A stretch of DNA of 64,000 bases from Haloarcula marina (GCF_024218775.1 NZ_CP100405.1:62001-126000); one strand, 5' to 3'; positions 39,614-64,000 are shown, numbered from the stretch's first letter. Notes: generated by a model from the letters alone, not told the origin. Made by a program: numbers and translations.

Positions 39614-39845
39614 CAATGCGACTATGGTCAGCGGTAGCAGTGAGAAAGACGGGTTGGAGGTTCCGGACGGCCGGGAAGACGAGATATTCGGACGCGGTGA
39701 AAAGGACTTGAGAGTCCGGGCACCGGGTTGGACCTGTATCTGGTCGACACGCTCGTCGGCCGATACGGTGGCGCCGAGTTCGTCAGCAGGCACCTGCAGC
39801 CGAACGCTGGCAGGACCCTGACCGCTGGGCCTGCCGGTGTCTCGC

Positions 39846-40217
39846 TCAGGCCGACTGCCGAGCGAACTCCCCGATGCGTTCATCCATCCGGACGTACCAA
39901 GCAGACAGTAATCTGTGCATCTCGTCTGCGAGTGCGTCGGCGTCCCGCATCCGGTACACGTACCGGTAACTCGGCCCGCTATCGTCGCGTGTCATCCGTT
40001 CTATGAGGCCTGCGTCGACGAGCCGGGTGAGCGACCGAGACACCGTCGACCGATGACGGTGGATTCGTTCGGCGATCTCGTCGACCGTCACTGGGCCGTC
40101 CACATCGGCGATGACAGCGAAGACACGCCGGTCAGTCTCACTGGCCCCGTACACGTTCTCCAGCAGAGTCACCCAGTTAGGATCAGCCTGCACTGACTCG
40201 TGAACGGAGGACACCAT
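39846..40217 (-). CDS. Winged-helix transcriptional regulator (TrmB-like)
   Basis: A 123-residue DNA-binding protein. VTVDEIAERIHRHRSTVSRSLTRLVDAGLIER at 43-74 is the helix-turn-helix and wing, and MRDADALADEMHRLLSAWYVRMDERIGEF is a C-terminal helix likely used for dimers. It is clearly related to the regulator at 48288-48692 over the whole length. It has no cysteine, unlike that paralogue. It is encoded upstream of trxA in the same direction and opposite to the DUF2892 gene, with motif copies between them. It probably represses or activates the sulfur genes. Confidence 0.8.
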   Translation of the reverse strand: MVSSVHESVQADPNWVTLLENVYGASETDRRVFAVIADVDGPVTVDEIAERIHRHRSTVSRSLTRLVDAGLIERMTRDDSGPSYRYVYRMRDADALADEMHRLLSAWYVRMDERIGEFARQSA

Positions 40218-40267
40218 CTCGATTGAGATTATTGTTTGAAGACGTAAAAAGGTTGTTCGTATTCTCT

Positions 40268-40276
40268 ACAATACTG
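40268..40276. promoter_or_regulatory. Weak copy of the shared motif before the cysteine-free regulator gene
   Basis: TACAATACT lies 51-59 bases before the regulator's ATG at 40217. A second ATTGTTTGAA lies closer, near 40232. Possible autoregulation site. Confidence 0.3.
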
Positions 40277-40446
40277 TGGGAACAGCACTTCAGAGTCGGA
40301 CTGACAGCAGTGTCTTCGAGAACCGAGAACAGCACACGTGACCGGCCATCATCCGAATATTTGGCACTCAACATCCGAAATATCCGCGGGTGGGAGAGGG
40401 GTTCGGTCGGCAGCGGCCTCGTCATCCCTAATCTGTCGGGGGCCAC

Positions 40447-40467
40447 GATTGTTTATATTGTACAATC
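40447..40467. promoter_or_regulatory. Inverted-repeat operator before the DUF2892 gene
   Basis: GATTGT and ACAATC form an inverted pair with 9 bases between, and ATTGTACAAT at 40457-40466 inside is itself a perfect palindrome. It lies 37-57 bases before the ATG at 40504. The gene also has an AGGAGG ribosome-binding site 4 bases before its start, unusual for this window. Confidence 0.55.
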
Positions 40468-40503
40468 AAAGAGTTATTACCAGAGGGAGACTTAGGAGGA
40501 AGT

Positions 40504-40728
40504 ATGGACCGTAATGTTGGTTCGACAGACAAGACTGCGAGAATTCTTCTCGGTGCCCTCGCGGGCCTCGTCTCGCTTAGCATACTTGCCAGCGCCGTTT
40601 CACTGCCAGCGATACTCGCGCCGGTGCTCGGACTCGCCTCGGTGATACTGCTGGGCACCGGCTTCAGCGGATTCTGTGGGCTATACAGACTCCTGGGTGT
40701 TGACACATGTTCCGTCGACGCCCGGTGA
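40504..40728 (+). CDS. DUF2892 (YgaP-type) small membrane protein
   Basis: A 74-residue protein, MDRNVGSTDKTARILLGAL..., with two membrane helices and the closing TGFSGFCGLYRLLGVDTC. This is the DUF2892/YgaP transmembrane domain, which in bacteria is fused or adjacent to rhodanese domains. A Cys pair (FCG and DTC) is retained. The start has a strong AGGAGG site. It is at the edge of the sulfur island and has an operator-like palindrome upstream. Confidence 0.82.
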   Translation: MDRNVGSTDKTARILLGALAGLVSLSILASAVSLPAILAPVLGLASVILLGTGFSGFCGLYRLLGVDTCSVDAR

Positions 40729-40871
40729 ACGGTCGGTGTATTATCGGACGGACTTCAGAAACGGCGCGCGGCTAAACGCCTATTTACAGGGCGAGAGGGT
40801 GAGTTCGGCAGTAGCCAAAAATCGCCCCTCAGCGGTTCCGGGCCGAACGACCGAGCGAACGACGGCTGAGT

Positions 40872-41075
40872 CCAGCGACGCCCGAATCAGGACTCGTAAC
40901 CGTCGAGGTCAACGACCCCAAAAAGACCGTCGAGCGTCTGGCCAGTGAGGGCATCGTCGTTCGGTCGTTGCCCCAACCGTCGGCGGTACGGGCGTCTATA
41001 CACGCCGTCAATACCGAATCAGAAATCGACCGTCTTGCAGCGACCCTCGGCAGCGTCGGTATGTCCGCCCGGTGA
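40872..41075 (+). pseudogene. C-terminal remnant of a class V aminotransferase gene
   Basis: The frame reads GLVTVEVNDPKKTVERL, SEGIVVRSLPQPSAVRASIHAVNTESEIDRLAATL, the typical C-terminal domain of class V aminotransferases (cysteine desulfurase and isopenicillin-N-epimerase-like). The pyridoxal-phosphate domain is missing. It runs head-on into the glutamine amidotransferase remnant, with the junction at about 41050-41075. Confidence 0.7.
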
Positions 41076-41311
41076 ACCTCCCGGACCCACGACGTGAGGG
41101 CGTGAATCCAATCCAGGTCGTCGTACACCGAGGTCTGTGAACCGCTGATAACCACGCCGTCGTACCGCCAGTCGTCCCCGGCTGGCGCCGGTGGGACCTG
41201 GCCATCGCTAACTTTGTACACCCGAGTCGTAGCGTCGAGTGACCGGGTCAGGTTGCGCTCTGCAGGTGTCTCACCAACTGACGCGTCGACGATGGCGATT
41301 GTTTGATTCAT
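41050..41311 (-). pseudogene. N-terminal remnant of a class I glutamine amidotransferase
   Basis: The first 87 residues, MNQTIAIVDASVGETP... YDGVVISGSQTSVYDD... LTSWVREVHRADIPTL, match the N-terminal part of GMP-synthase-like amidotransferases. The expected next segment with the catalytic Cys (GxCxGHQ) is absent; the frame instead reads through antisense to the aminotransferase remnant up to 40829. No active enzyme is expected. It lies between the DUF2892 and DsrE genes. Confidence 0.75.
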
Positions 41312-41354
41312 GTGGTTTCAGTCCCGGAGAAAGTCGCGCAGTGGCTGTCGTCGC

Positions 41355-41927
41355 TCAGACGAGCAGTTGGATGTCGGACTCGGCCATGTGCTGGAGCGCA
41401 GTGGCCGCGCCGACGCCGACGGTGACATCGTCGTAGAAGTCGTCCTCGTCGTAGTCCATCAGCTCGATAGTCATCTGGCAGGCCTGGAGGTCGACACCCT
41501 GGTCCAGCGACAGCTCGATGAGTTCGTCGATCGTCGCCGTCCCGTTGTCGTCGATGCGCTTTTCCATCATGCGCGTCGCCATCCGGTCCATCCCGGGCAG
41601 TGCCGCCAGCGCGTTCGGCATCGGCATGTTCGGATTACCGACGGCCGACAGCTGGAGATTCCGGGACTTCTCCTCGTGGAGGATATCTAAGCCCCAGAAC
41701 GTGTGGAACACGACCACGTCCCAGCCGAACGCGGCCGCGGTGCTGGCGAGGATGAGGGGCGGATACGCCATGTCGAACGTCCCCTGCGTCGCGACGATGG
41801 TCATCTTCTTCTGGTCGTCGTCGGCCTCCAGGTCGGCGACCGTTTCCTCGAGTTCTTCGATGCGAGCCTGCAGTTGCGCCTCGCTCATCGACTCGCTGTC
41901 GCCGGTCGAGGATGCGTCTGTACTCAT
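41355..41927 (-). CDS. DsrE/DsrF-like sulfur-relay protein
   Basis: A 190-residue DsrE-family protein. The first 40 residues form a short coiled coil (LQARIEELEETVADLEAD), followed by TIVATQGTFDMAYPPLILASTAAAFGWDV and the conserved Cys150 in LQACQMTIELM, the likely persulfide carrier. DsrE-like proteins of this DsrE2 type pass sulfane sulfur with TusA and rhodanese. The TusA gene is directly upstream, one base away, in the same direction, so they are cotranscribed. Confidence 0.87.
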   Translation of the reverse strand: MSTDASSTGDSESMSEAQLQARIEELEETVADLEADDDQKKMTIVATQGTFDMAYPPLILASTAAAFGWDVVVFHTFWGLDILHEEKSRNLQLSAVGNPNMPMPNALAALPGMDRMATRMMEKRIDDNGTATIDELIELSLDQGVDLQACQMTIELMDYDEDDFYDDVTVGVGAATALQHMAESDIQLLV

Positions 41928-41928
41928 G

Positions 41929-49490: not shown

Positions 49491-50652
49491 TGTGCGTCAA
49501 TACGTGGGCCACAGTGTGGGCGTCCGCGACGCCACCTTCATTGATGAGCAGCGCGGTGTTGGCGTCGGCCACTTGCCGCTCACCGGCCCGGTCGGTGAGC
49601 TGTTCGTAGGCTTCGATGGCCTGCAGCAGCCCGGTCGCCCCAATCGGGTGTCCGCGGGCCTTCAGTCCGCCGCTGGTGTTGATTTGGACGTCAGTCCAGC
49701 CCGCCGACCGGTCTCCGGGGTCCTCGACGGTCTCGATTCCACGACCCTTGGGAGCGAACTCGGCGGCCTCGGCCAGCAGTGCCTCGCAGACGGTGAAGGC
49801 GTCGTGGACTTCCGCGACGTCGATATCCGCGGCGTCCACGTCGGCATCCTCGTAGGCGGTCGAGGCAGCGACGTTCGCGCCCTCGACGAACGTCAGGTCT
49901 CGCTCCGCGACGGCGAGGTTGTTGGCCGCCGAGCCAACGCCTGCCACGTGGACTGCGTCGTGACGGCGCTGCAGGTCGGCCGCTACTTCGTCGTTCGCGA
50001 CGACGACGGCCGCGGCACCGTCGGTGACCGGCGCACAGTCGTACAGTTTCAGCGGAGGAGCGACATCGGGAGCGTCCATGACCGTCTCGACGTCGACTGC
50101 TTGCTGGAACATCGCCCGTGGGTTGGACGCCGCGTTTCGGTGGTTCTTTACGGCGATCCTGGCCAGGTCGCGTTCCGTCGCGTCGGTTTCGTGGAGGTAT
50201 CGCCGAGCGAGGAGGGCGTACGTGGCGGGCGCGGTGATCCCGGACCGCTGTTCCAGGGCCCGCTCGAAGGCGGCACCGAGCGCGTTGGTGGCCCCCTCGG
50301 TCCCGCCAGCGGTCATCTTCTCGACGCCGCAGGCCAGCACGGCGTCGTGGACGCCCGCCCGAACGTCGCGGACGGCGTTCTTGAGCGCGAGCGCACCGGC
50401 GGCCGCACACGCCTCGACGCGCTCCGCGGGGACGTTCCGCAACCCGGCCCACTCGGCCATGAGTGTCCCCTGCATGATCTGGTTCTCGTACCGCTCGGAC
50501 TGAGCGCCGACGTACAATCCGTCCACGACGTCGGCTGGGTCGGGCAGCCCCTCGAACGCCTCGGCTATGGCCCGAGAGAACAGGTCGCGGCCGGGCAGGT
50601 CCGTCTTGCCCAGCGGCGAGGAGCCGACCGCGATGAGATGCGCTGTAGCCAT
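49483..50652 (-). CDS. Thiolase family protein (SCP2-type acetyl-CoA acetyltransferase)
   Basis: A 389-residue thiolase. The nucleophile Cys82 lies in RVEACAAAGALAL, with VHDAFTVCE and GGLKARGHPIGATGL supplying the His and the oxyanion site. The ATG at 50652 (MATAHLIAVGSSPLGK) starts at the family N-terminus; a longer frame upstream is noise. It condenses or cleaves acyl-CoA with DUF35. In haloarchaea such pairs also occur outside the mevalonate pathway. Its divergent neighbour is an acyl-CoA ligase, which points to fatty-acid or branched-chain acyl-CoA metabolism. Confidence 0.87.
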   Translation of the reverse strand: MATAHLIAVGSSPLGKTDLPGRDLFSRAIAEAFEGLPDPADVVDGLYVGAQSERYENQIMQGTLMAEWAGLRNVPAERVEACAAAGALALKNAVRDVRAGVHDAVLACGVEKMTAGGTEGATNALGAAFERALEQRSGITAPATYALLARRYLHETDATERDLARIAVKNHRNAASNPRAMFQQAVDVETVMDAPDVAPPLKLYDCAPVTDGAAAVVVANDEVAADLQRRHDAVHVAGVGSAANNLAVAERDLTFVEGANVAASTAYEDADVDAADIDVAEVHDAFTVCEALLAEAAEFAPKGRGIETVEDPGDRSAGWTDVQINTSGGLKARGHPIGATGLLQAIEAYEQLTDRAGERQVADANTALLINEGGVADAHTVAHVLTHND

Positions 50653-50984
50653 CCTCTGAGAGTCCGCAACTGAGCGCATTAATAGTTCGTCCCGAAGCCC
50701 ACAACTCTCGACGCCGGGCAGTGAGTGGCAGTCCGAAACACATCTAGTCAGAAGTATGACCACTTCTACAGCGCCGATTGTGGATGCGTCTGGTCTCCCT
50801 GTGCGACCCCCGAACGGGAAATCCATGTCGTCGTCGAGAATTGATACCGCCCCCATTGAGGCATGAGACGCCCGTTTCGGGAGTATTCGAGCGCCGGTCA
50901 CGCGTAGTCACCGGGCACGAGCCACCGGGGAACGTCAGCGGGTGAGAAAGAAATTTACGTGCCACAGACACGTCTTGTCATACC
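50653..50984. other. Divergent promoter region, 0.33 kb
   Basis: No gene seen. A TATA-like AATTTAC at 50952-50957 lies 28-33 bases before the ligase ATG. Nothing else stands out. Confidence 0.35.
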
Positions 50985-52565
50985 ATGCATCGAGCGATGA
51001 CGACGCTCGACTTCCTCGACAGGGGGGTCGACGTCTACGGTGACGCCGTCGGTGTAATCGCCCACGACGGCACCGAGTACACGTACGCCGAGTTCGGCGA
51101 GCGAGTCGACCGAGCGGCGGCGGCACTTTCGACCATCGGCATCGAGGAGGGCGACCGCGTGGCGCTGCTCTCGCCCAACACACACTGGTTTCTGGAGACG
51201 CTGTACGCGATCAACGTCCTCGGGGCCATCTCGGTCCCGCTGAACTACCGGCTCATCGCCGACGACTACGAGTACATCCTCAACGACTGCGGGGCCCAGG
51301 CGGTCGTCGCCGACTACGAGTACGCTGAGAAAATCGAGGCGGTCCGCGACCAAGTACCCGCCACGGCGTTCGTCGCCAACCCGGCCGACCGCGTCGACGG
51401 CGACTGGCGCGACTACGAGTCACTCCTGGAAGAAGCCGACCCCGGAGGTGTCGAGCGTCCCGACATCTCCGAGGACGACCCCGCGACGATCAACTACACG
51501 AGCGGGACGACCGGCGACCCGAAAGGCGTGGTCCGGACCCACCGCACCGAACACTGGCACGCACTGATTACCACCCATCACACCGAGGTCAGGGACGACG
51601 ACGCCTACCTCTGGACGCTCCCGATGTTCCACGTCAACGGGTGGGGCTATCCCTACGTCATCACCGGCGTCGGCGGGACGCACGTCTGCCAGCGCCACTT
51701 CGACGCCGAAGGCGCCTTCGAGCGCATCCACGACCACGACGTGACTTATCTCTGCGGCGCGCCGACGGTGCTCGACTCGATGGTCGACCACTACGAGGAC
51801 AACGACATCGCAGCGACCGGTGACAAGCCGGTCAGAATCTCGACCGCGGCCAGCCCACCGCCCGAAGCCACCATCCGGACCGTCGAGGACGAACTCGGCT
51901 GGGACATCCTGCACGTCTACGGACTGACGGAGACCGGCCCGCTGATAACGACGAGCAACTCGCCGCGCCGGATCGAGAGCGAGGGCCGCTTCGCGGTCAA
52001 GACCCGCCAGGGCCACGCCATGCTCGGGACCGAACTACGTGTCGTCGACGAGAGCGGTGCCGACGTCCCCCGCGACGACGAGACGATGGGCGAAATCGTC
52101 GTCCGCGGCAACCAGGTCATGGACCGCTACTGGAACAAGCCCGAGCAGACCCGCGAGGCGTTCAGCAGCCGGGTCGACGGGTGGTTCCACACGGGCGACT
52201 TCGCCACTATCGACGAACTTGGGATGATCTCGATCAAGGACCGCAAGAAGGACGTCATCATCAGCGGCGGCGAGAACATCTCCAGCGTCGAGGTCGAGAA
52301 CGCCCTCTACGACCACCCCGACATCCGGCGCGTCGCCGTGATCGGCGTCCCCCACGAGAAGTGGGGTGAGACACCCAAAGCAATCGTCGTGCTCGAATCC
52401 GGCGCCGACCTCACCGAGGACGGAGTGATCGAGTTCGCACGCGACAACCTCGCACACTTCAAATGCCCGACCGTCGTCGAGTTTGTCGAGGACCTCCCCG
52501 AGACCTCGACAGGCAAAATCCGCAAAGTCGAACTCCGGGAGACCCACAGCGACCCTGTCGGGTGA
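50985..52565 (+). CDS. Acyl-CoA ligase (AMP-binding family)
   Basis: A 526-residue adenylate-forming enzyme. The P-loop is TINYTSGTTGDPKGV; later motifs are HVYGLTETGP, GWFHTGDFATIDELG, KDRKKDVIISGGENIS and the catalytic Lys near the C-terminus in PETSTGKIRKVEL. Medium- or long-chain acyl-CoA synthetases look like this; the exact acid is open. A second ATG at 50997 is possible, but 50985 suits the TATA distance. It is divergent from the thiolase/DUF35 pair. Confidence 0.88.
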   Translation: MHRAMTTLDFLDRGVDVYGDAVGVIAHDGTEYTYAEFGERVDRAAAALSTIGIEEGDRVALLSPNTHWFLETLYAINVLGAISVPLNYRLIADDYEYILNDCGAQAVVADYEYAEKIEAVRDQVPATAFVANPADRVDGDWRDYESLLEEADPGGVERPDISEDDPATINYTSGTTGDPKGVVRTHRTEHWHALITTHHTEVRDDDAYLWTLPMFHVNGWGYPYVITGVGGTHVCQRHFDAEGAFERIHDHDVTYLCGAPTVLDSMVDHYEDNDIAATGDKPVRISTAASPPPEATIRTVEDELGWDILHVYGLTETGPLITTSNSPRRIESEGRFAVKTRQGHAMLGTELRVVDESGADVPRDDETMGEIVVRGNQVMDRYWNKPEQTREAFSSRVDGWFHTGDFATIDELGMISIKDRKKDVIISGGENISSVEVENALYDHPDIRRVAVIGVPHEKWGETPKAIVVLESGADLTEDGVIEFARDNLAHFKCPTVVEFVEDLPETSTGKIRKVELRETHSDPVG

Positions 52566-53005
52566 GGCAGTCGACTCGTCCCGCCGTTCTCGACGGCTTC
52601 AGGCGACACCCTGACCGAATGGATCGCATCCCAACGACAGTCGGGAAACTATTCCTCGAACTGAAAATTATATCAATATCCCTGTAATCGCGAGTTTCTC
52701 CGAAACAGACGACGACGAGGAGAACCGGTTCGGCCAGACACAGACCGAGTACAAGGAGTGGGCCATCGAGCGGGTCCAGTAGCACCACACGACGACGGTC
52801 ACCTACACCGGCGACAACAACGTCACCTACAACATCTGGAGGCGTCCCGCGGGGAGTACGCCGAGATGCCGCTCCACGAGAAAGCGATGGAGAACAAATT
52901 ACTGGCCGGGAGAGCGTGGTCGCGACGCGGCTGCTCGTCGTCAGCCTGTTCGTGGGCGGCGGCATCATCTAGACCGACTTCACTGTTACCGGTCTCAGAG
53001 TGCCG
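52566..53005 (+). pseudogene. Decayed gene remnant, probably a membrane or transport protein
   Basis: Stretches of haloarchaeal coding-like sequence remain, but in different frames with stops: one reads SFSETDDDEENRFGQTQTEYKEW to a TAG at about 52782, another EYAEMPLHEKAMENKLLAGE, and a hydrophobic end (VVATRLLVVSLFVGGGII, TAG). The hydrophobic end and charged lead suggest a membrane protein fragment, but no family was recognised. Codon composition fits an old gene broken by frameshifts. Confidence 0.45.
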
Positions 53006-53854
53006 CTATCCGGTCGATTGATTTTGTTGAACCCGTTCAGCAACGGCTGACTCAAACGCTGACAGCGAGGCGACAAACTCATCATCGGAAAAGAGGTCGA
53101 CATACGATTCTCGGGCAACTTCCGAAACAAGCCGATTCCGCACCGCGTCGACCGTCAGTGACTGGTCATCCGCTTGCAGTGCTGCCACGATACGATTGAT
53201 TCGCTCGTCAGTAGCATACACCGCTGCCAACTCTGTAGCCGACCGAGAGGCGGGGGGAGACTGTGTCGTGGCTTCGTCAGCCCATGCTGTGGCACGCCCA
53301 CCGGATTTGTCGCGTATCAGCACGCCGACTGCGTGCCCATCTCGCCACTCTGACTGCGGGAATGCCGACTCGTGGTCGTACTGAGTGAAGTCAGCGTGTG
53401 CCGCCGCCAACTCTTTGTCGATAGCCGGTAACGTGGGCAAGCCCAGACGCTCGTATACACCAGTCGCCGAATCCGGGGGCAGGAATTTGCCTTGCCGACT
53501 GGACCACACGTCGACCCCCACGAAGGCTGGGACCTTCTGCCAGTCGAATTCGGTTCCCTCGTTTCGGGTCGCGAGTCCACAGAAGGTTACGTCGCTCGGG
53601 TCGTCCGTCGCCGCCGCCAGTGCTTCACGGTCCAGTCGGTCGTTGATGAGATTTGCCGCCCGACGGAATTGCGGCGGTACAGCTGCAGCCGTGTCGTAGG
53701 ACTGCCTGGCTGTGGCGAACGTCACGAAACCTGATGCGGCCACCTGGAACCGAAACTCCGCGCCAGTCGGGAGTTCCTCTACCCAGACGTGTCCGGAGAA
53801 CTCGGCATCATCGAGGGCCGGTGTGTCGGGACACTGCTTCACACTTAGACTCAC
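53006..53854 (-). CDS. RNA ligase-like protein, apparently without catalytic residues
   Basis: A 282-residue protein whose body parallels the haloarchaeal RNA-ligase family: HVWVEELPTGAEFRFQV, FVTFAT, FCGLATRNEGTEFDW, PAFVGVDVW, GKFLPPDSATGVYERLGLPTLPAI, WRDGHAVGVLIRDKSGGRA. But where active members have E-K-x-D-G at the adenylated lysine (motif I) this reads EELPTG; the FGE position reads CGL and the EGV position reads AVGV. So the nucleotidyl-transfer Lys and two Glu appear lost. The start is GTG. The role is unknown; it may bind RNA ends or have become a structural or regulatory protein. The family call is from memory of conserved positions. Confidence 0.55.
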   Translation of the reverse strand: MSLSVKQCPDTPALDDAEFSGHVWVEELPTGAEFRFQVAASGFVTFATARQSYDTAAAVPPQFRRAANLINDRLDREALAAATDDPSDVTFCGLATRNEGTEFDWQKVPAFVGVDVWSSRQGKFLPPDSATGVYERLGLPTLPAIDKELAAAHADFTQYDHESAFPQSEWRDGHAVGVLIRDKSGGRATAWADEATTQSPPASRSATELAAVYATDERINRIVAALQADDQSLTVDAVRNRLVSEVARESYVDLFSDDEFVASLSAFESAVAERVQQNQSTG

Positions 53855-53986
53855 ATTCCGTGTGGTCGTAAAGGGATGGACTGAGCCAGCTGGATTTGAT
53901 GAACGATAGTCCAGACGTGTTTGCTCGGAACAGCCACAGGGTACTTAGGACGAGAATGCCACTGTGTGCTCACCGAAACTGCTGCG

Positions 53987-54403
53987 TCACCTGTGACCAG
54001 TATTGATTCGGGGATTCGTATACCAGTACGCCCAGAGGATTAGGACGCCCTGCAGTGGTAGCCGTGCCCACCGGATGAGTTCTGACGGATCGCCGCCGCC
54101 GGGCACTCCTTCGATGACGAGACCACTGGTAGCCATGTAGATGTTCGCAGGAAAGATCGTTATGAGCAACGCAACCGTCGCCCACGCTGCGTATTTTCTC
54201 GTTTGTGGGAGCAATACCCCGATGCCCACAGCGATTTCGGCGAGCCCGGACAGATAAACCAGCAAGAGTGCTGCTGGGAATATCGGCGGGACAATTTGGA
54301 CGTACAACTCTGGGACGACGAAATGGAGGAGTCCAGCAACGATGTACAATGGCCCCATCACGTAGAGCAACGGGCGTTTGAACTGCGCCAAACGAGCAGA
54401 CAT
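53987..54403 (-). CDS. DoxX-family membrane protein
   Basis: A 138-residue protein with four membrane helices, MGPLYIVAGLLHFVVP, ALLLVYLSGLAEIAVGIGVLL, YAAWATVALLITIFPANIYMA and LPLQGVLILWAYWY. Tyr-rich helix ends and HFVVPELY match DoxX/DUF417-type proteins, in some bacteria linked to sulfur or oxidative stress. It is isolated; function unclear. Confidence 0.75.
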   Translation of the reverse strand: MSARLAQFKRPLLYVMGPLYIVAGLLHFVVPELYVQIVPPIFPAALLLVYLSGLAEIAVGIGVLLPQTRKYAAWATVALLITIFPANIYMATSGLVIEGVPGGGDPSELIRWARLPLQGVLILWAYWYTNPRINTGHR

Positions 54404-55850
54404 TCAATGCCGAATCGTGCCTCCACGCGTGAACCAGTTTTGGGGAGGGGGCGGCCATCGACGAACGTCAATGTGGACGGATTTGCGTCGTCTTGGCCCA
54501 CCTGTCGTTTGGACTCCACTCCGCTCTGCCCTCGACCGTGACGCCGCCCCGCCGCGTGTCGGACTATCGCCCACCGTTACGGGAAACGCCGGGACGCCGC
54601 CCTCGCCGGATGCACTGGGGCCACCTCCTGACTCTCTCCGCGTGCCCCACGCCGCATTCGCTTCCTGCTCCTCGCGGCGACAATGAGGGCAACAGCCACG
54701 CCTCGATGCGTTCTCTCTGTGTGTGGTCGGTTAGGGGACGAGGCCCGACTGTGGAAATCGTGCGCGGTTGGGTCCGGTGGAACGAAAGGGCACTCCCGAC
54801 GCCGCCACCGCCGACGCCACGCCCGCCGGGTCGTAGCCCCCGCTCACGGCGCTCCTGTGGCGCTCGTGGTCCCGGCCCCCTGGTGGCAGAGACGTCGTCG
54901 CCCTCCTGCCCCTCGCGGCCCTCTCCACGGGCCACGCCGGACGAAACCCGGCGGGCCGGGCAGTATCAGTACCGCCGCCACCTGTGGGACTCGCACCACT
55001 CACCGGGCCTGCAGGGTCTGCGCTACCACACTACGGACACCACTTCGGGGCCGGCCACTCTCTCCGGTCCCTGTGCCTGATCCACCTCCTGCACCGGCGC
55101 TCGCCGGCCACGGGACCGCTTCGCCGCGCCGTTGCCTCCCACGCTCTGCGCTCGCGCGTCGCCGACGTGGTTCCTCAACACCGCAACCTCCGGCTTGCGG
55201 CAACAACAGGGACAGCCTCCGCCCCCCGTCCGACTCGCTGCGCCGCCGCCGAAGCGACTGCCCCGGACAGGCCCCATGCTGGTCCGGGGCTACTCCCCTC
55301 GCCTCGGTCATACCGCTCGGCCACGGAGTAGCGGGTCCATAGCGCACCTGCCTGTCGACGTATCGAACCGCACTTCCAGAGGCCCGCGGCGCTCACACCC
55401 CACCTTCGAGGTCGCGTAGCCCCACTCACTATCCACGGTCACTCTGCCTCTGCCTGTCCACTCTGCATAGGCACACTCACTATCCACTCTCTCGGTCTCG
55501 GTGTCTGTTCACTCCTACGTACACACTTCCGCTGTCCCCGGTCGCGTAACACCCCTGCTGTCTCGGCGGCGCTTCTGCAGACTCTCCCCCTGCCGGTATA
55601 GACCTCGCTCACTCCCACTGTCTCTCTCAGACCTTGCGGAGTCGCCGCGGCGCTCATAGACACTCCGTAATCCATGCTGTTACTGGCCCTATCAGAGTCA
55701 CCTAGACGTACCGCACTCACCGCACATTGAAGTTCATCCGCTGTTCTCATATCGAACTTCTCAATCCTTCCCTTTCGGGGTGACCCCCCTCCCCTCGAAT
55801 CTCATCCGCGATGGGGGTCCCCCCCCCCTCTATAGGTGTCGTTCGGGTTG
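54404..55850. other. C-rich 1.4-kb stretch without a convincing gene
   Basis: The plus strand is unusually rich in C and poor in A, with many GC-rich inverted pairs such as GCCGGAC..ACCCGGC near 54938-54955 and GGCCGG near 55050 and 55101. Several open frames exist in all directions but their translations are Arg/Pro/Gly-rich and low in complexity, unlike haloarchaeal proteins with their Asp/Glu excess. CACTCACTATCCAC is found twice, at 55423-55436 and 55474-55487. Further on, GGGGTGACCCCC near 55777 and a run GGGGGTCCCCCCCCCC near 55813-55827 could form hairpins. It may be a structured RNA, a replication or integration site, or a decayed element. Confidence 0.4.
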
Positions 55851-55856
55851 AACGGA

Positions 55857-55907
55857 ATCAAATAGCCATCAACTCTTAGAGACGGGAAAGTTATCAAATA
55901 GCATCAA
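55857..55907. promoter_or_regulatory. Direct repeat just before the winged-helix gene
   Basis: ATCAAATAGCCATCAA at 55857-55872 and ATCAAATAGCATCAA at 55893-55907 are spaced 36 bases apart. The second ends 13 bases before the ATG at 55921. They are probably operator sites for the encoded DNA-binding protein. Confidence 0.5.
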
Positions 55908-55920
55908 ATTATCTCTTGAT

Positions 55921-56502
55921 ATGGGACGAGATCTCGGACTTGATCGCAACGCTGAACGCATGCTGGTAATGCTCGCTGACGACGGCCCGCTGAAGACGTC
56001 GGCACTACGGGAGCGGCTCGAACTAAAGAAGAATCAGGCCGTGAACTATCGTGGAAAGCGTGTGCTTGGCGGTGGTCGCGACGACGATGATCCAGCACTG
56101 GGGTTCGTCCAGAATGACGGCGATGGGATGGGCACATCGACAGAACTCACTTGGTGGCTAACGGAGTTGGGGCAGGAGTGGGTGCGTCAGCATCGCGACG
56201 ACCTCGAATCTCCTCAGGATGCGAAAGAGGCTGTCGAGTTAGTTCGTGAGTTGCAGGACGAGATCGATTCACTACGTGGGCGGATCCAGCAGGCCGAAGG
56301 AAAGGTCTCTCAACTTGGCAGGAGTCCAGTTAAATCCAAAGAGGGTTTCTCTAAATCGGAGTTAAATAGTACTGGAAAAAATTCACACGATATACACAGA
56401 TTAAAATACGATATAAGAAGTATTAAAAGGAAAAACGAACAGTTTGGAAAACGGCTGTCGAATATAGAGGACATATTGCTCGATCCTGAGCGCGAGCGTT
56501 GA
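55921..56502 (+). CDS. Winged-helix/coiled-coil protein, plasmid- or virus-like
   Basis: A 193-residue protein. Residues 10-90 form a winged helix: LDRNAERMLVMLADDGPLKTSALRERLELKKNQAVNYR, then a polar wing. Residues 100-190 are mostly coiled coil (AKEAVELVRELQDEIDSLRGRIQQAEGK and IHRLKYDIRSIKRKNEQFGKRLSNIED). Proteins like this often sit on haloarchaeal plasmids and integrated elements. The 3' half is AT-rich, which differs from the flanking genes and suggests transfer. It has a repeat pair upstream (55857-55907). Confidence 0.7.
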   Translation: MGRDLGLDRNAERMLVMLADDGPLKTSALRERLELKKNQAVNYRGKRVLGGGRDDDDPALGFVQNDGDGMGTSTELTWWLTELGQEWVRQHRDDLESPQDAKEAVELVRELQDEIDSLRGRIQQAEGKVSQLGRSPVKSKEGFSKSELNSTGKNSHDIHRLKYDIRSIKRKNEQFGKRLSNIEDILLDPERER

Positions 56503-56692
56503 TCCGTGGGAATGCACGGTATCCTACATTTTAGTGGAAAATGAATAATTTATACATACGACTAGAGCCTCAGGAGGTGCACCCGAGATCAGCATTTGTG
56601 CCCGTGTCTCAACTATGAACGGTGTAGCCACGTGGCTTCAAACTCGCGACACTCGGATTCGATAATGATCTGGAATTAACAGAGATTGCAAG

Positions 56693-57097
56693 TCACTCGA
56701 ATATAGGGAGACGAAGGTACGATCCGCTAGATCGGTCTGGGATCTCGGTATATCCAGACATCAGGTCCATCATTCGTTCGCCATATTCTATTCCATCGAC
56801 GGTACGAACAGGTATTGTCGCGGGGATTGTCCCATCAAAAATTGGTTCCTGGTCTTCGAGAGAGTCGTAGTCTTCTTGAACCAGAATAATGTCGACGTCA
56901 CTTGGGTTCTCGCCAGCTCTATCAATTGGTTTGTCTGGGTTGGCAAAACTACCTGTGAGCCATACGCTGTGTACTCCACTCCAGTCAGTAATCCTCAGAT
57001 TTGCTTGAACGTGTTCGGCGATGAGGTCGAGATCTAATTGACTTGGATCTACTCCCATCGATGTCTCAGTATCTTCGCCTTGAGGGTATATACTCAT
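56693..57097 (-). CDS. Nucleotidyltransferase-like protein (MNT type)
   Basis: About 134 residues. VWLTGSFANPDKPI, then SDVDIILVQEDY provides the G-S and D-x-D of minimal nucleotidyltransferases, with a longer loop than usual between. Such proteins act as antitoxins in MNT/HepT pairs or modify nucleotides. ATG options are 57097, 57103 and 57058. A HepT remnant lies in the same direction at 61505-61839, too far to be a normal partner. Low GC, as its neighbours. Confidence 0.6.
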   Translation of the reverse strand: MSIYPQGEDTETSMGVDPSQLDLDLIAEHVQANLRITDWSGVHSVWLTGSFANPDKPIDRAGENPSDVDIILVQEDYDSLEDQEPIFDGTIPATIPVRTVDGIEYGERMMDLMSGYTEIPDRSSGSYLRLPIFE

Positions 57098-57272
57098 ATA
57101 CATACTGGCTGGCAGTTCACAACTCAAGACATTCAAAATTGTAATAGCACAAAATATTTCGTGATGCTCGTAACCCCCTCTCTTTCTCTCTCAATATGGT
57201 CGGGTACTCTCAATGAGTGTCTAAATAATGTTAATTATCTACTTATACTGTTATCACTGGCCAGATTGACCG

Positions 57273-59081
57273 ATGTATATGGAAACACCCTACACTCGCT
57301 TTGGGAAAACGACCTATCTGAGTGCGATTTTCGACGACACTATTTGGGAGATCGGATCACCCCTCGCGGTCGAGAATCCGTATCCGGGTATCGTGACGTT
57401 CCAATCGGCCCCAGAGCCTGAATCGAACCGATTCATAACAAAAAAGAGAACGAGCCCAGTCATCAGCACTGGTGAGTTCGTCGAACAATTTACATATTCA
57501 CCGACGCTGGGCGTCTGGGAAGTCATTGGCGATGAGACAGCGGTGCTGTGGTTGGTTGCCGATGAGCCGACGAGAGATTGGCCCTGGGCAGTGTATAACG
57601 CTGTTAGCGAAACGGTAGCAGACACTGTTGGGATGTCACTTGAGCGGGTTAGCAAACTGCTCAACAGTACTGTAACACGGTTAACAGAGAAGACGATTGA
57701 TTTGGGTCCAGTCAGACAACTAGACGGTAGCCGCCACCGTTTTCACCGACGCGGCTATCTATGGACCGTTGAGACCGTCGAGCGCACGAGTCTCGAATCG
57801 TTCATACGGTGGAACTTTCTCAACCACCACAAGCGAAAGGGGAGCGAAGAGCCGATCGACGAGGCGATACTCAGTGGGTTGCGACAAATGGCCAGCCAAC
57901 TGCGAACAGAGGCTGCGATCGTCGAACGATTGGCGTCACCAGGTGACGATATCGTCGAACACCGTAATTCGCCGTTCGTTTCCATTGCGTACCCGACCGA
58001 TACGCATCGACCTGAGACGAACGTTGCCGTCTCAGCTGACACAGAGAGAACCGAAACCAAACTGAACCCGATCCAGACAGATATCGGTGCAGCCATCGAA
58101 GGTGTCGATAGTGCACAGGACATCGATATTGTCCAGTCTTCAGTCGGGATCTGTAGTCGACCAAGCGATGTGATCGATATTGGTGAGAATATGGACACTG
58201 GGCCCGTTCGTGTCGGAGCTGACCGGTGGCAGCGAGCGTCCGAAGCAGAACTCGAATCGATGTCTCGGGAAAACTATATGCCACTCCGTCGGTTCCTCGT
58301 CACACGGCTCGGCATCAGCCAGTCTGAGCCAGAATTTGACCGGATCTCATATCGATTGCACGAGTACCTCACTGCGACTGACAGCATCCAGTCGGCAGGA
58401 ACCCTGAGTAACGTTCGTCAGGATCTGCGAAGGCGAACAAACGAAGTCCCGACTCCACTCATGCACTGGAGCGGTGTGACTGGCCTGCTCGATATTGCTG
58501 CACTTGAGACACCTGACTTCTTTGTGGCATTGCCATACAGTTATTCATTGGAGGCGGCGGTTGACCGACTACGCGAGCATCACGAGACCGTTCGTCAGCT
58601 CTGTCGTGGTTGTGGAACATACTTCGAGATTGAGCCGGAAGCTCCTTCTTGGACCTGTGAGCGGTGTTGTTCGGACGCGACGCCGACGATCAACCGAACC
58701 GCAGTCTCGCCATTCGGTGCTGAACAAACAGAGTATTGTTACATTTGTCTTTCACCGGTCGCGCCGGACCAATTGCAACGGCACCATCTCGTCCCTCGCG
58801 ATGTCTTTGAAGATGCGCGCACCAGGGACGACCCGGCCAATACGGTCACCGTTCACGCGACGAAGTGTCCGGGGCATGCACACGCGATTTCCCATCAAGC
58901 GTTGGACGCAGATATCGATCGGGCATGGAACCAGCAGTCGGTCGAACACGAGCCAGCGCGGTGGTTCAATCTGCCACATCTGGTCTGGGTACTGCACGAA
59001 CTCGGCGACGAGATGGCGCCTCCAACCCGACAGCGAGTGATTGAGGTCATCTATCGCATGTGGACCGAACAGTTCCAATGA
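57273..59081 (+). CDS. Large HNH-motif, zinc-ribbon protein, coupled to NurA-like nuclease
   Basis: A 602-residue protein. Residues 1-440 have no recognised fold. A zinc ribbon follows: Cys444, Cys447 (CRGCGTYF), Cys462 and Cys465 (CERC). Then an HNH-like nuclease centre has CYICLSPVAPDQ (Cys489, Cys492), RHHLVPRDVF (His504, His505), Asn523 and CPGHAHAIS (Cys532, His535, His537). The next gene begins inside its stop (ATGA, 4-base overlap), so they are made together. A DNA endonuclease or DNA-binding role is likely; defence against viruses or element mobility are both possible. Not a known named family to me. Confidence 0.7.
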   Translation: MYMETPYTRFGKTTYLSAIFDDTIWEIGSPLAVENPYPGIVTFQSAPEPESNRFITKKRTSPVISTGEFVEQFTYSPTLGVWEVIGDETAVLWLVADEPTRDWPWAVYNAVSETVADTVGMSLERVSKLLNSTVTRLTEKTIDLGPVRQLDGSRHRFHRRGYLWTVETVERTSLESFIRWNFLNHHKRKGSEEPIDEAILSGLRQMASQLRTEAAIVERLASPGDDIVEHRNSPFVSIAYPTDTHRPETNVAVSADTERTETKLNPIQTDIGAAIEGVDSAQDIDIVQSSVGICSRPSDVIDIGENMDTGPVRVGADRWQRASEAELESMSRENYMPLRRFLVTRLGISQSEPEFDRISYRLHEYLTATDSIQSAGTLSNVRQDLRRRTNEVPTPLMHWSGVTGLLDIAALETPDFFVALPYSYSLEAAVDRLREHHETVRQLCRGCGTYFEIEPEAPSWTCERCCSDATPTINRTAVSPFGAEQTEYCYICLSPVAPDQLQRHHLVPRDVFEDARTRDDPANTVTVHATKCPGHAHAISHQALDADIDRAWNQQSVEHEPARWFNLPHLVWVLHELGDEMAPPTRQRVIEVIYRMWTEQFQ

Positions 59082-60406
59082 CGCGGTATTCGCGTGAACA
59101 TCACCTCGTCGAGGCAGCGTTCGAAGAGTTAGCTCCACGGGTCGCTCAATCGGTGACAACAACACCCAGTGCCAGTGAGGTGTGGGATTCCATCAGTGAG
59201 ACGGATGCGGATGCACTCGTCTCGTTGGTGGGTAAAGAGTCGACGATTCGGACAGTGTCACACGACGTATTCGCTGATATTGATCCAGTCCGACCAGCCT
59301 ACGGGCTCGACGCGGGGTCGACGGGCGGAATCCAGTTACAGTCGGGCCACCGTGTCTGTGGCTGTCGGTCGATGTTCGGCGTGGAGGGTGAGAAAGGCGA
59401 TGTCTGGGGAGAGAAGACACTACTTCACGCAGTGATCGACCCGCATTCGGGGACTGAGCAGTATTACTCTGCACGGGTTTCGGATCGTGGGTACGAGAAC
59501 GTCCAGACGGTGAGCCATGCGATTGCCTTGCCAAGCCCTGCAGATGGCCGCGAGACTGACGAACTCGTTACACTGCTGCAGTTTCTCTGTGAGGCGTTGC
59601 ATCTTCAACGAGGTGTGCATCAGCTCCGTGGGCCGCTGTACATCGATGGGGCATTGCTTCCGTTGGGACTGGCCAGCAGACTGCAGTTCTCCCGTGATAC
59701 GGAGACACGAGAGGAGCCGTGGACCGCGCTCGCTCGGGTTGTGCTGGCCGTCTTCGCGACGGCGATCGCCGTCCACCTCGAAAAGGGATATCGAGTGTTC
59801 GCGATCGCGAAGACGCAGGAGTCTGATGCCCTGGTTCGGACATTGAACGAGGTTATCGAGACTGGCGAGACGTCGGTGAGTGCCGTCCGGCCGACGTCGA
59901 CCGCGGACGCTGTGTTACCGTGGCAGACTGACCGACAGTTCATGGCCGATTTGCTAGCCGAACAAGCTGCAGGTGGTCGGCCTGAGACGACGTGGGCCTA
60001 CACACCGTGGTTGGCCCAGCCGATGCTTCCAGGTCCGCATGGTGACCACCAGTATCACCCACTTGCAGAAGTGCCGATATCGTACGTGCCCCAAGCGTTG
60101 TTGTCTCGGGCGTACTTCTTTGTCCGAATCCCGAATCAGAACGGCCTGTTTCGGATCGAAGCTCCGCTCCCGACGATTACGCGGGTTGATCAGGCAGCGC
60201 GAGAGCGGCTTCAGCGACTCATCATGCGAGAGATGGCCCAAGACAAAGGAACGGTCCAACCAGTTGCGCGTGCCGATGAGAACGTGTCTGTCGGCTATGC
60301 GGGACGGCGTGAGGTACAGGAGACGGTCGAGAGAGTGTTTGCTGCAGCTGATCTCAGGTCGCGGCCTGTGCCTGCGCACAACCGGGATATTCGCTGGCAG
60401 CATTAG
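59078..60406 (+). CDS. NurA-domain nuclease
   Basis: A 442-residue protein. NurA motifs are visible: AYGLDAGSTGG with metal-ligand Asp78, LYIDGALLP with Asp190, VFAIAKTQES with Lys245, and the late RAYFFVRIPNQNGLFRIEAP. NurA degrades DNA 5' to 3' and usually works with the HerA helicase for repair. Here there is no HerA gene; instead the partner is the HNH-type protein, translated from an overlapping start. The start ATG at 59078 is preferred to a GTG 18 bases earlier. A 46-bp repeat array begins 28 bases after its stop. Confidence 0.8.
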   Translation: MTRYSREHHLVEAAFEELAPRVAQSVTTTPSASEVWDSISETDADALVSLVGKESTIRTVSHDVFADIDPVRPAYGLDAGSTGGIQLQSGHRVCGCRSMFGVEGEKGDVWGEKTLLHAVIDPHSGTEQYYSARVSDRGYENVQTVSHAIALPSPADGRETDELVTLLQFLCEALHLQRGVHQLRGPLYIDGALLPLGLASRLQFSRDTETREEPWTALARVVLAVFATAIAVHLEKGYRVFAIAKTQESDALVRTLNEVIETGETSVSAVRPTSTADAVLPWQTDRQFMADLLAEQAAGGRPETTWAYTPWLAQPMLPGPHGDHQYHPLAEVPISYVPQALLSRAYFFVRIPNQNGLFRIEAPLPTITRVDQAARERLQRLIMREMAQDKGTVQPVARADENVSVGYAGRREVQETVERVFAAADLRSRPVPAHNRDIRWQH

Positions 60407-60434
60407 CCCTGACAATATCCGACGGTTCACTGTC

Positions 60435-60665
60435 GTGATGGTGGGACGATATCAGCACACCAGTCCGACTCATTAACGTTGTGATGGTGAAACGACGTCG
60501 CAACACCAGTCCGACTCATTAACGTTGTGATGGTGAAACGACGTCGCCACACCAGTCCGATTTATTAACATTATGGTGGTATAACGACGTCACGGCACTA
60601 ATCCGACTCATTGATATTGTGGTGGTGGTGAAACGACGTCACTCCATCAGTCCAATCCCACCCAC
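60435..60665. repeat. 46-bp tandem repeat array (five copies)
   Basis: Units start at 60435, 60481, 60527, 60573 and 60619, each 46 bp except the last, which has an extra GTG (about 47-49). Each has GTGATGGTGAAACGACGTC, ACCAGTCCGACTCATT and an AACGTT end. Copies 1 to 3 differ at only a few bases; copies 4 and 5 are more diverged. There are no unique spacers, so this is a tandem repeat and not CRISPR. Each unit contains the palindromes CGACGTCG and AACGTT, so they could be protein-binding iterons. Confidence 0.85.
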
Positions 60666-60778
60666 TTCTATCGGAATTAACGCGTTGTAGCGGCGGGTCC
60701 GGATACTGGAGGGACATTCGGGGCCGGTAGCTATGATCGCCTTCGAGCCGAGTGACACCCTTCCGATGTATTAGTGCT

Positions 60779-60826
60779 GTGGTAGTCACGTGACGTTACT
60801 GACTCAGTCCGACCCCACCGCTCATT
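60779..60826. repeat. Diverged sixth copy of the 46-bp repeat
   Basis: GTGGTAGTCACGTGACGTTA followed by CTCAGTCCGACCCCACC and CTCATT aligns with copies 4 and 5. A weaker ATTAACGCGTTGTAGCGGCG at about 60678 may be another. The array therefore extended beyond 60665 and is decaying. Confidence 0.5.
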
Positions 60827-61504
60827 TATCCATCTATGTATACTCTCGACGTTAGTTGAGTGCTCTCCACGAACGGACTGAGTTGGACTCAATCCCAGAG
60901 AGGATTAGGGCGGCTGTCAACACATTCGGTGTGGAGATCTCGCTTGACCGTCCCTGAATCATTCGCCCTCTCGACGTGGACTATCCAGGCCCAATGACGA
61001 GGCGGTCGTTCGGACACTCGGGACAACTCAATTCGGGACTACCATTCCCGGCATCTCTCTACCCCTCACAGCCGCCCAGCGGCGGCTGGTGCCGCTGCAT
61101 ACGATAACACAAAGGACACACATCCAGCCAGTCCGTCAGTCCCACGCTGCCCACACCAGTCTTCGGCGGTTGCTCCCGGCCGCCAGCCCCCATGACGTTC
61201 ACCGGTAACCTAGGTTTCTGCCCACTTCCTACCCCAACTCTAGAACCCGGCTTGAGACCCGACCGATAGTGAGCCGACACAATCGTCAGCAGGAACCAGC
61301 TCGCAACTGGACTGGCTCCTCAATTGTAATTAAATTCGTCGACGCAAATGTGATTAGCACTGTTAGTGATGTTCCGGGGTCTACTCGGCACCATCCAGTA
61401 CCGTTGCCTCCGACAACTCCCGAATGCGAGACGGTGCAATCGGAAAAACCACCTCGGGTGTGCCGGCCGCCGCCCAGACGGTGTCGAACTACGGAAACAC
61501 ATTG
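60827..61504. other. 0.7-kb stretch without a gene, with a strong hairpin
   Basis: No protein-like frame was found. AGCCGCC and GGCGGCT at 61070-61087 form a 7-bp stem with a CAGC loop. Otherwise low structure. It lies between the repeat array and the HepT remnant. Confidence 0.4.
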
Positions 61505-61839
61505 CTAGCAATCTCGGTCGCCGAGTGCACCAATGGAATCGAGATAGTCTCGCACCGCCTGGACGAACGCACGATAGTGCTCAAGATCTTGAAGTTCATT
61601 ATACACGACGTCGTGATTGATCATGTTGCCGTAGGTATGCGATAAGACATTTCGGAACCGGGCACCTGCACCATCTCCTCAGCCAGTGGTCTCGCGAGGA
61701 CACCCATCTCACCGAGCGTTCGCATCGACGCTAGATTACTCGTTGGTAGCTTGCCCCGTTCGCGTTTGACGATCTTCCCAGCGGTATCGATGGCTGTCTC
61801 TGTCATTTTGACGACCCACATTTTCCTAGACCCACACAT
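61505..61839 (-). pseudogene. Frameshifted HepT (HEPN-domain) toxin gene remnant
   Basis: The first open part reads TAGKIVKRERGKLPTSNLASMRTLGEMGVLARPLAEEMVQ; one base lost near 61665 shifts the frame, after which FRNVLSHTYGN, NHDVVYNELQDLEHYRAFVQAVRDYLDSIGAL continues to TAG at 61507-61505. RNVLSH is the R-x4-H catalytic motif of HEPN RNases. About 20 N-terminal residues also seem missing. HepT is the toxin partner of MNT antitoxins. The gene is inactive unless the break is bypassed. Confidence 0.78.
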
Positions 61840-62098
61840 ATGCTCGATTTATGACGATAACTATCTTTTACTCGAACTCAATCTAGTAAGCTTTCTCTAC
61901 AAAACCTTATTGTTGTATAAAATTACTTAGTATAGGTTTGGATGGAAGTTTGTCTTTGCCAATATAGGTTAGTAAATTTCCCCGATACACTTCTAATCGA
62001 TATTTTCTCTCTGAGGATGGCTACGTAGCTATCGTCCAGCCATCTTACCCGCAAGGAGTTTGGTTCTCTTTTCTACCTAATAAAAGGAAAATTGTATT
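61840..62098. other. AT-rich intergenic region
   Basis: A 0.26-kb stretch with long A/T runs and no gene. It separates the HepT remnant from the large glycosidase-like gene and may include that gene's terminator (TTTTCCTTTTATT on the minus strand lies upstream of 62098). Confidence 0.35.
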
Positions 62099-64000
62099 TT
62101 ATAGATTAATTATATCCCGGCCGATTGAAGCAGTTGTTCGGCCACCTGCTTCGTAGAACATGTAGAGTTTGTCCCCGTTCAGGTCGAAGTTTTTCGACGA
62201 ACCAGTGGTGTAGAAGTAGGGGGAAGCACACCGCTCGTAATCCGGGCGGTCGGAGAGTGCCTGTCTGAAGATTCCGAGGTGATTCTCTTTGTCAAGGTTC
62301 TCTCCGACTTCGGCAATATAATGTTGGCCTTGACTGGTGCTCGGTCCGTCAGCATGGAAGGTGACATAATACGTCCCATCCCATTCGAAGTAGAACGGAC
62401 CGGAGACATTACCGACGTTGTCGTGGGCAATATTATCCGGGTCGATCACTTCTTCGTCGTCTATCGTCCAGTTCTTCGCGTCGTCAGAGTACGCGGCGCG
62501 GATGTGTCGAGTGCCGCTCTGGTTATCCATGAACAGCATCAGATATTGTTGGCTTGCAGACTTCTTCGGCAGCGAATGTTCGAACACGCGGGCATACGAC
62601 GATTCGCTGCTGTTGAGGGGATCCATTGTAGTGTCGATCGCAACCCCTCCGTACGTGAAGTTGATACCGTCCGATGAAGTCGCGTATCTGGTCGTGTCAT
62701 TGTCACCGTGGAAATACAAGAAGAGCTGTCCGTGTTCGTCGTTCCACATCGCGTGCGGCGAGGAGACGTGAGACGCTTGGTAGTGTGGATTCCAATCCGG
62801 CGGGACGATTGGATTGTTCGAGTACTCTGTCCACGTCCCGTCCTCTAGTGTCCCATCGAGCGAATCGGAGTAAAACAACGCTACACCGACAGTGTTCCCA
62901 TCTCTCGTATTCTCGTTCCCGTGCGGGGCACAATAGAGGTAGTACTGGCCAAGCGGATTGTCCAGATTCGAAGTCTCGATGACCGACGGGAAGATGAATT
63001 CGTCACCCGGACTGTAGTTCGCGTTCGCGGGCGCGAACACCTCGTCATTCGTCGAGAAATTCGGTTTCGGTGGGAGGTCTACCAGCGAAGTGCTACCGCT
63101 CGCTCCCGGTGAGCCGATGTCGATCGAGGAGTATGACGACTGACCGATACCGCTGACTTCGTCGAAGTTCGACGTGCAGAGCGTTCCCTGCAAGCCGCTC
63201 GTGACCGCCAGCCCGATATACGGGTCGGTCATGGAGATGGTCACCGACCCTATTTCAGTCCATGACTGACCATCGCGCGAATTGTAGCCGGTAAGTGTGT
63301 CACCGACTCGTTCGATCTTTACCCAGTATGGAGCGTTCACACCGTCATTTGGGTCCGTATTGGATGAACTGCCGCCGGTGGAACTCCGCCACTGGAACCG
63401 AGAGCCGTTCGCGCTCGGATTGTCCGGTGTGACGTACATCATCGCGTTCTTCGCGTCTGCGGAGAGACTGTCTCGAATCATCACTCCGGCTTTCGCCCAG
63501 TCGTGTGTCGCTTCTTGACGTGTAACCCGTGTTTGTATCGTAGTGTCACCGGAAACCTGTTCGTACGCGAAATGGCAGTGATCGGCGCTGCCGTAAATAT
63601 CGTCACCAGCCCCATTGAGTTGCCATCCGTTACCCGACCCGCTTCCACCGCTTCCAGCGGACTCGGTGAGATAGTCGAAGGCGGCGGACTCCCATACTCT
63701 GAAGCCGAAACTCCCATAGGTATACGTCGAGTCCGTCGCCGAAACCTGTGCGAGTTGGCTCCCCGATGAATCTTCGAGGACCCACGTGAGGTTCCCGCTT
63801 GTGTCTGTCGTGATCGTATTGGTGACCCACTCGCCGGTGGGAATCGTCGCCGACGATTCGGCGAGTTTGGTCTTGCTACCGCCATCGAAGCGTCGAATCT
63901 TCACGACGTTCTGGTCTTCTTGGACGACGAACTGATAGCCGTCTGTACCAATCGCGTTCGTAAATAGCTGGATACCGGCATCGGTCTGTGTCCGGACGTA
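62099..64000 (-). CDS. Large lectin/propeller carbohydrate-active protein, C-terminal 633 residues
   Basis: The frame is open to the window edge, so the N-terminus is missing. In order: a jelly-roll lectin-like part (GEWVTNTITTDTSGN, YGSFGFRVWESAAFDYL), a Gly/Ser linker (GSGGSGSGN), a second such fold of DUF1349 type (WQLNGAGDDIYG, AGVMIRDSLSADAKNAMMYV, IGLAVTSGLQ), another Ser-rich linker and a five-bladed-propeller-like part similar to GH43 (FIFPSVIETSNL, YYLYCAPHGNENTRDG, HVSSPHAMWNDEHGQLFLYFHG, VSGPFYFEWDGTYYVTFHA, ASPYFYTTGSS). The Ser/Gly/Thr linkers and low charge point to secretion. It probably attacks or binds plant polysaccharide, feeding the intracellular glycosidases of this window. 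The exact family is uncertain. Confidence 0.7.
   Translation of the reverse strand, partial: YVRTQTDAGIQLFTNAIGTDGYQFVVQEDQNVVKIRRFDGGSKTKLAESSATIPTGEWVTNTITTDTSGNLTWVLEDSSGSQLAQVSATDSTYTYGSFGFRVWESAAFDYLTESAGSGGSGSGNGWQLNGAGDDIYGSADHCHFAYEQVSGDTTIQTRVTRQEATHDWAKAGVMIRDSLSADAKNAMMYVTPDNPSANGSRFQWRSSTGGSSSNTDPNDGVNAPYWVKIERVGDTLTGYNSRDGQSWTEIGSVTISMTDPYIGLAVTSGLQGTLCTSNFDEVSGIGQSSYSSIDIGSPGASGSTSLVDLPPKPNFSTNDEVFAPANANYSPGDEFIFPSVIETSNLDNPLGQYYLYCAPHGNENTRDGNTVGVALFYSDSLDGTLEDGTWTEYSNNPIVPPDWNPHYQASHVSSPHAMWNDEHGQLFLYFHGDNDTTRYATSSDGINFTYGGVAIDTTMDPLNSSESSYARVFEHSLPKKSASQQYLMLFMDNQSGTRHIRAAYSDDAKNWTIDDEEVIDPDNIAHDNVGNVSGPFYFEWDGTYYVTFHADGPSTSQGQHYIAEVGENLDKENHLGIFRQALSDRPDYERCASPYFYTTGSSKNFDLNGDKLYMFYEAGGRTTASIGRDIINL

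Follow-up and report, generated by a model that had tools for sequence, protein, structure and literature searches.

It is generally assumed that NurA nucleases depend on HerA for the delivery of DNA. The window analysed here (the whole 64-kb stretch, G000:C2:62001-126000, from a secondary replicon of 363,878 bp in a halophilic archaeon of the genus Haloarcula) carries a NurA-like gene joined to the gene for a 602-aa zinc-ribbon protein, and so raises the question of what such a nuclease might do with a partner other than HerA. An earlier note on this DNA had singled out the two genes, together with an adjacent repeat array, as a candidate undescribed system. What is new here is the pairing of a NurA nuclease with a protein other than HerA, the NurA family itself being known, and our literature search found no paper that joins NurA with an HNH partner.

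A coupled gene pair shared by two species

The two genes (Table 1) are joined by a 4-base ATGA overlap and constitute a translationally coupled two-gene module, as the earlier note had described. The pair recurs with the same 4-base overlap in Haloarcula (Halomicroarcula) rubra F13 (NZ_RKLR01000010.1; G348:C1). Between the window and H. rubra, the 602-aa protein is 59-60% identical and the NurA protein 76%, with dN/dS values of ~0.22 and 0.08 for the respective genes (dS exceeds 1, so that synonymous sites are saturated). Judged by these comparisons, the two genes are kept together under purifying selection.

Table 1. Features of the locus, in window coordinates
Feature	Position	Strand	Basis
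Left part of 54-kb accessory segment (G000:C2:116900-170921)	54900..64000	.	Plasmid comparison
Promoter-like block TTATCTACTTATACTGTTATC	57235..57255	+	Ungapped alignment of window and H. rubra upstream regions
602-aa zinc-ribbon/HNH-like protein gene	57273..59081	+	ORF
Zinc ribbon C444-x2-C447 ... C462-x2-C465	58602..58667	+	Four Cys invariant, both copies
HNH-like centre	58737..58895	+	Invariant motif residues; weak Pfam/PHROG HNH matches; hhalign
C-terminal helical tail, residues 544-602	58902..59078	+	Sliding identity, pN/pS
NurA-family nuclease gene, 442 aa from ATG	59078..60406	+	ORF, homology, fold match
46-bp tandem array, five copies at 60432, 60478, 60524, 60570, 60619	60432..60664	+	
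Two more degenerate repeat copies	60730..60816	+	Local alignment score 47 vs shuffle maximum 42

Similarity between the two loci covers an upstream block and both genes and ends at the nurA stop codon; the conserved unit thus consists of the upstream block, the HNH gene and nurA. The TTATCTACTTATACTGTTATC block is equally far from the start codon in the window and H. rubra copies, which match there without gaps as TTATCTACT-A-A-T-TTA. This arrangement suggests a shared promoter, which the block would represent, and a start at 57279. The 602-aa ORF is accordingly more likely to begin at this codon (residue M3), which aligns with the H. rubra start, than at 57273. A scan for bacterial-type promoters and terminators returned nothing above shuffles. 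Third-position GC content of the pair is 0.58-0.64, compared with 0.79-0.88 for metabolic neighbours, in keeping with the low GC that had been remarked on for part of the region.

Homologues of the 602-aa protein, counted after exclusion of sub-threshold noise, occur in 2/32 genomes of the genus, 2/146 of the family, 2/384 sampled from the order and 2/391 sampled from the class, always the same two. When 84,980 species genomes were scanned with a degenerate pattern, H. rubra alone was recovered, and none of the matches in plasmids, phages, viral contigs or genome_contigs was convincing. Weak matches at E 1e-3 proved to be chance similarities or short stretches of zinc ribbon. As a unit, the pair is conserved and very rare, known from two examples in two species of one genus.

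On the 3' side of the H. rubra pair lie a DUF7342 HTH gene and then an AbiEi/AbiEii pair, ~1.5 kb downstream (L045:14218-15887; PADLOC E near 1e-95). In the only other 602-aa homologue found, nurA again follows immediately and HerA is not in the vicinity, so that neither a homologue away from nurA nor a close HerA gene speaks against the pairing that the earlier note had proposed. The recurring HerA-less neighbourhood that it had looked for exists, though only in this genus and in no more than two of its species.

The downstream gene encodes a NurA-fold nuclease

Pfam NurA scores of 14.3 bits for the window protein and 18.3 bits for the H. rubra protein both fall below the 21-bit cut-off, and profile evidence alone is therefore thin. 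Structure prediction is more telling. An AlphaFold model of the 442-aa protein (pLDDT 73.9, pTM 0.79) matches SsoNurA and TkNurA, from Sulfolobus and Thermococcus, at Z 19.0, with VIA comparisons giving Z 19.0 against 2ygk_A (290 aligned, rmsd 5.0) and Z 19.0 against 9x1m_G (283 aligned, rmsd 4.0). Foldseek E values against solved NurA chains range from 7e-9 to 3e-6. A PDB search by sequence returned nothing relevant for either the 442-aa or the 602-aa protein.

An alignment of 26 NurA sequences, from which three plasmid-record rows were left out, has invariant residues at D78, G90, E172, D190, G191, P195, K245, D285, T309, W311, P352, R359, E361, P363, A399 and D400. In S. islandicus NurA, the residues reported to be critical are D58, E116, D133 and K202 (PMC4351679), and D78, E172, D190 and K245 follow these in order and rough spacing, a correspondence set by order and spacing rather than by superposed coordinates. 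The predicted fold and the conserved residues firmly identify gene 2 as encoding a NurA-fold nuclease that keeps its catalytic residues, in agreement with the family assignment made earlier.

A search of 392 genomes from the order placed NurA paralogues of 23-29% identity as the best matches after H. rubra. Comparison of the 442-aa protein with HerA-flanked NurA relatives, some of them annotated as NurA in RefSeq, gave E values of 1e-29 to 1e-19. The window and H. rubra proteins form a clade in the NurA tree with support of 100/100, on a branch of 3.6 changes per site whose placement is unsure. This NurA is a distant relative of those encoded in the Rad50-NurA-HerA gene sets of haloarchaea. 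Viral contigs and phages yielded no NurA of this type.

The upstream gene encodes a lineage-specific zinc protein with a probable HNH centre

The four zinc-ribbon cysteines of the 602-aa protein are invariant between the two copies, as are the residues of its HNH-like centre: C489-x2-C492 (CYIC), H504-H505, N523, C532, H535, H537 and H541. The last 59 residues are 88% identical to H. rubra with very low pN, which makes the C-terminus the most constrained part of the protein. Domain libraries name nothing that covers the whole protein, and the N-terminal 430 residues contain no recognised domain. The AlphaFold model is poor (pLDDT 30), owing to the lack of homologues. The sequence features thus far describe a lineage-specific zinc protein with an apparent HNH-like centre and a strongly conserved C-terminus.

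Evidence for the HNH centre comes from several comparisons of modest score. On the isolated region, Pfam HNH (PF01844) reaches 16.5 bits, below its 21.4-bit cut-off; PHROG HNH families match the protein at E 0.01-0.02; and hhalign against haloarchaeal HNH domains gives P values of 0.0018-0.0044 at low probability, with 0.84 for an N-terminal control segment. Like haloarchaeal PF01844 endonucleases, the protein has a CxxC ... HHxxP ... N ... C pattern. Unlike them, it has a His/Cys arrangement (HATKCPGHAH) in place of the second CxxC, scores below the Pfam cut-off and carries a 430-residue N-terminal part without a recognised domain. The HNH identity is plausible but weak, so that an HNH centre is likely rather than proven; with a sub-threshold HNH match and a poor structural model, nuclease activity is putative.

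HerA, Rad50 and Mre11 are missing from the locus

Homologues of HerA, Rad50 and Mre11 are absent from the 64-kb window and from the neighbouring stretches taken. The absence of a HerA gene recorded in the earlier note extends to the neighbouring stretches of both the window genome and the H. rubra copy, and the 602-aa protein has no detectable similarity to HerA. By comparison, HerA adjoins nurA at 28/28 of the nearest other NurA relatives examined, from which a locus without HerA truly departs. Rad50 also adjoins nurA at 27/28 of these loci, the exception (L009) lacking it in its short flank. A chromosomal HerA does exist in the window's genome (G000:C1:2746605), beside a chromosomal NurA and on a separate contig from the pair.

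A precedent for action without HerA exists in S. solfataricus NurA, which can nick and degrade DNA by itself (PMC4641729). On the other side, T. kodakarensis NurA without HerA is far less efficient and leaves duplex DNA uncut (PMC12977600).

Comparison with known systems places the pair near, and outside, several of them. It shares with the HerA-NurA end-resection complex of Sulfolobus, Pyrococcus and Thermococcus the NurA fold (Z 19), the catalytic residues and a coupled operon, but lacks a HerA gene and has the 602-aa zinc/HNH-like protein as partner instead. The nearest NurA relatives, at 23-28% identity, belong to Mre11-Rad50-NurA-HerA operons of haloarchaeal plasmids (for example Haloferax alexandrinus pBNX82-4 and Halocatena salina), which resemble the pair in their secondary replicons and patchy occurrence; the pair differs in lacking Mre11, Rad50 and HerA. 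Three plasmid NurA relatives are annotated as belonging to such four-gene operons. The HerA-based anti-phage systems SIR2-HerA and HerA-DUF4297, and TdpAB as well, resemble the pair in that a nuclease comes with another protein coupled to it; TdpAB was a PDB match to the 442-aa model, its NurA-like chain (8wfd_G) aligning at Z 13.2. These systems rely on a HerA-type ATPase, however, whereas the pair is without one.

In many haloarchaea, a further NurA is found apart from the chromosomal one and has HerA and Rad50 homologues as neighbours, and on plasmids these cassettes are Mre11-Rad50-NurA-HerA operons. This second set is a patchy accessory cassette and may be a candidate defence or plasmid-repair system. 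In Haloferax volcanii, we observed a match to the NurA Pfam model above the cut-off; a review lists HerA and NurA as absent from this species (PMC7776575).

The pair lies in a strain-variable accessory segment

Window positions 37498-54899 are 99.1% identical to the 310-kb Haloarcula marina plasmid NZ_CP100408.1. The match then stops and resumes at G000:C2:170922 with 99% identity, leaving a 54.0-kb segment that contains the pair and is missing from the H. marina plasmid (junction site L057:17386). The pair is thus accessory. The 9-mer GACGTCGTC occurs at both ends of the segment, and the difference could reflect either loss from H. marina by microhomology deletion or gain here by an insertion that duplicated 9 bp; the C-rich tract on the left continues across the breakpoint without a break, which somewhat favours deletion. 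The variable unit, at 54 kb, greatly exceeds the pair in size and has its ends elsewhere.

Transposases, integrases and terminal repeats are absent from the DNA adjoining the pair. No recognisable toxin remnant was found beside the pair, contrary to the earlier description. No defence gene adjoins the window copy, and we saw no modification enzyme that could serve self/non-self discrimination.

The function of the pair

The reading that we favour, with a probability of roughly 45%, makes the pair a module for destroying DNA, carried on a plasmid, with the HNH/zinc protein instead of HerA as the partner that engages DNA. In this scheme, the HNH/zinc protein would take HerA's place, engage DNA and then nick or cut it, and NurA would degrade or resect from the nick or end so produced. 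With less confidence, the purpose may be the destruction of foreign or competing DNA, in defence or plasmid rivalry, over housekeeping repair. Such a purpose is suggested by the pair's rarity, plasmid location, strain variability and low GC3, and by AbiE ~1.5 kb away in H. rubra. Defence is favoured only mildly, in view of the patchy distribution, the location on a plasmid and, in one of the two genomes, the nearby AbiE, and a defence function is accordingly possible. PADLOC has no model that matches either the 602-aa protein or the NurA. The more specific proposal of an undescribed two-nuclease system for defence or plasmid competition, in which an HNH/zinc sensor replaces HerA and licenses NurA against invading DNA, seems to us unlikely in that full form. 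Against the replacement of HerA counts the chromosomal HerA, which could act in trans.

That same chromosomal HerA figures in the main alternative, which we consider somewhat doubtful and in which the pair serves plasmid maintenance or recombination by processing the replicon's own double-strand ends (repair, recombination, resolution), with chromosomal HerA acting in trans and the HNH/zinc protein contributing specificity. The main chromosome carries a HerA-NurA pair, and the contigs of both copies of the gene pair are non-chromosomal or plasmid-like and have neighbours in common, thiolase and CoA-ligase genes among them. NurA's best-known role is moreover end resection with Mre11-Rad50-HerA (PMC2288612, PMC5715905). 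A maintenance role is harder to square with the H. marina plasmid, which is 99% identical over 17 kb and does without the pair, with the very long branch of this NurA (3.6 changes per site) and with the lack of a Rad50 or Mre11 copy beside the pair.

The pair might instead be a decaying remnant of an Mre11-Rad50-NurA-HerA operon that lost HerA, Rad50 and Mre11 and had an unrelated gene land upstream. Its nearest relatives do come from Rad50-NurA-HerA gene sets, and degenerate non-coding DNA is present in the surroundings; yet both genes are intact in two species with dN/dS of 0.08 and 0.22, and the overlap and upstream block are conserved. Purifying selection and conservation thus make decay very improbable.

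If the HNH/zinc protein does stand in for HerA, a NurA naturally coupled to a non-HerA partner would be proof that this nuclease can be refitted with a different protein to engage DNA, and the pair would offer a convenient system of two proteins in which to study HerA's own contribution. Should defence be proven, a motor-less NurA effector would be added to archaeal immunity. With two known copies only, the significance of the pair is limited.

The 46-bp array and other features of the surroundings

The 46-bp array begins 28 bases past the nurA stop, where the earlier note had placed it; TRF reports it at 60435-60640 with 4.4 copies and a score of 223. An exact 35-mer of the unit occurs 2 times against 0.00 expected. 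Copies 1-3 contain a 22-bp imperfect dyad (16/22; shuffle 95% = 14), the RNA structure z of -1.2 is not notable, and Rfam has no match in the region. A CRISPR was rejected, the copies running head-to-tail without spacers.

Neither the H. rubra copy nor any of the other 31 genus genomes has the array, and the window's genome contains no second site, a single 23-base match in genome and genus being at chance level. With this absence, and with similarity stopping at the nurA stop codon, the array is not part of the conserved unit, and we rejected it as a component of the system to which it had originally been assigned. The same absence weakens iteron, self-replicating and transposing readings. 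The earlier suggestion of a self-replicating or transposing element is hardly credible, also in a form in which the HNH or NurA protein would recognise the repeats as iterons or end-sites, since the array, real and dyad-bearing as it is 28 bp downstream, is not conserved with the genes, the pair is flanked by neither terminal repeats nor a gene for a transposase or replication initiator, and the variable segment spans 54 kb with ends that do not match it.

Several other features surround the pair. The C-rich tract and the nucleotidyltransferase described previously were both located: the former is non-coding, covers window 54500-55900 (strong GC skew, -0.24 at 55-56 kb) and contains the H. marina breakpoint, and the latter is a small nucleotidyltransferase-like ORF at 56693-57136 on the minus strand (GSFA...SDVD, weak DUF6932), with no obvious partner gene. 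At the right end of the 54-kb segment, a histidine-kinase fragment abuts an ABC-permease fragment. Positions 61070-61493 are 73% identical to a Haloarcula sp. JP-L23 plasmid region overlapping a YbaK/EbsC-family gene and are apparently a non-coding remnant. A 282-aa protein encoded on the minus strand at 53006-53854, with an RNA-ligase domain match of 14.4 bits, below the cut-off, is also found in H. marina as a hypothetical protein.
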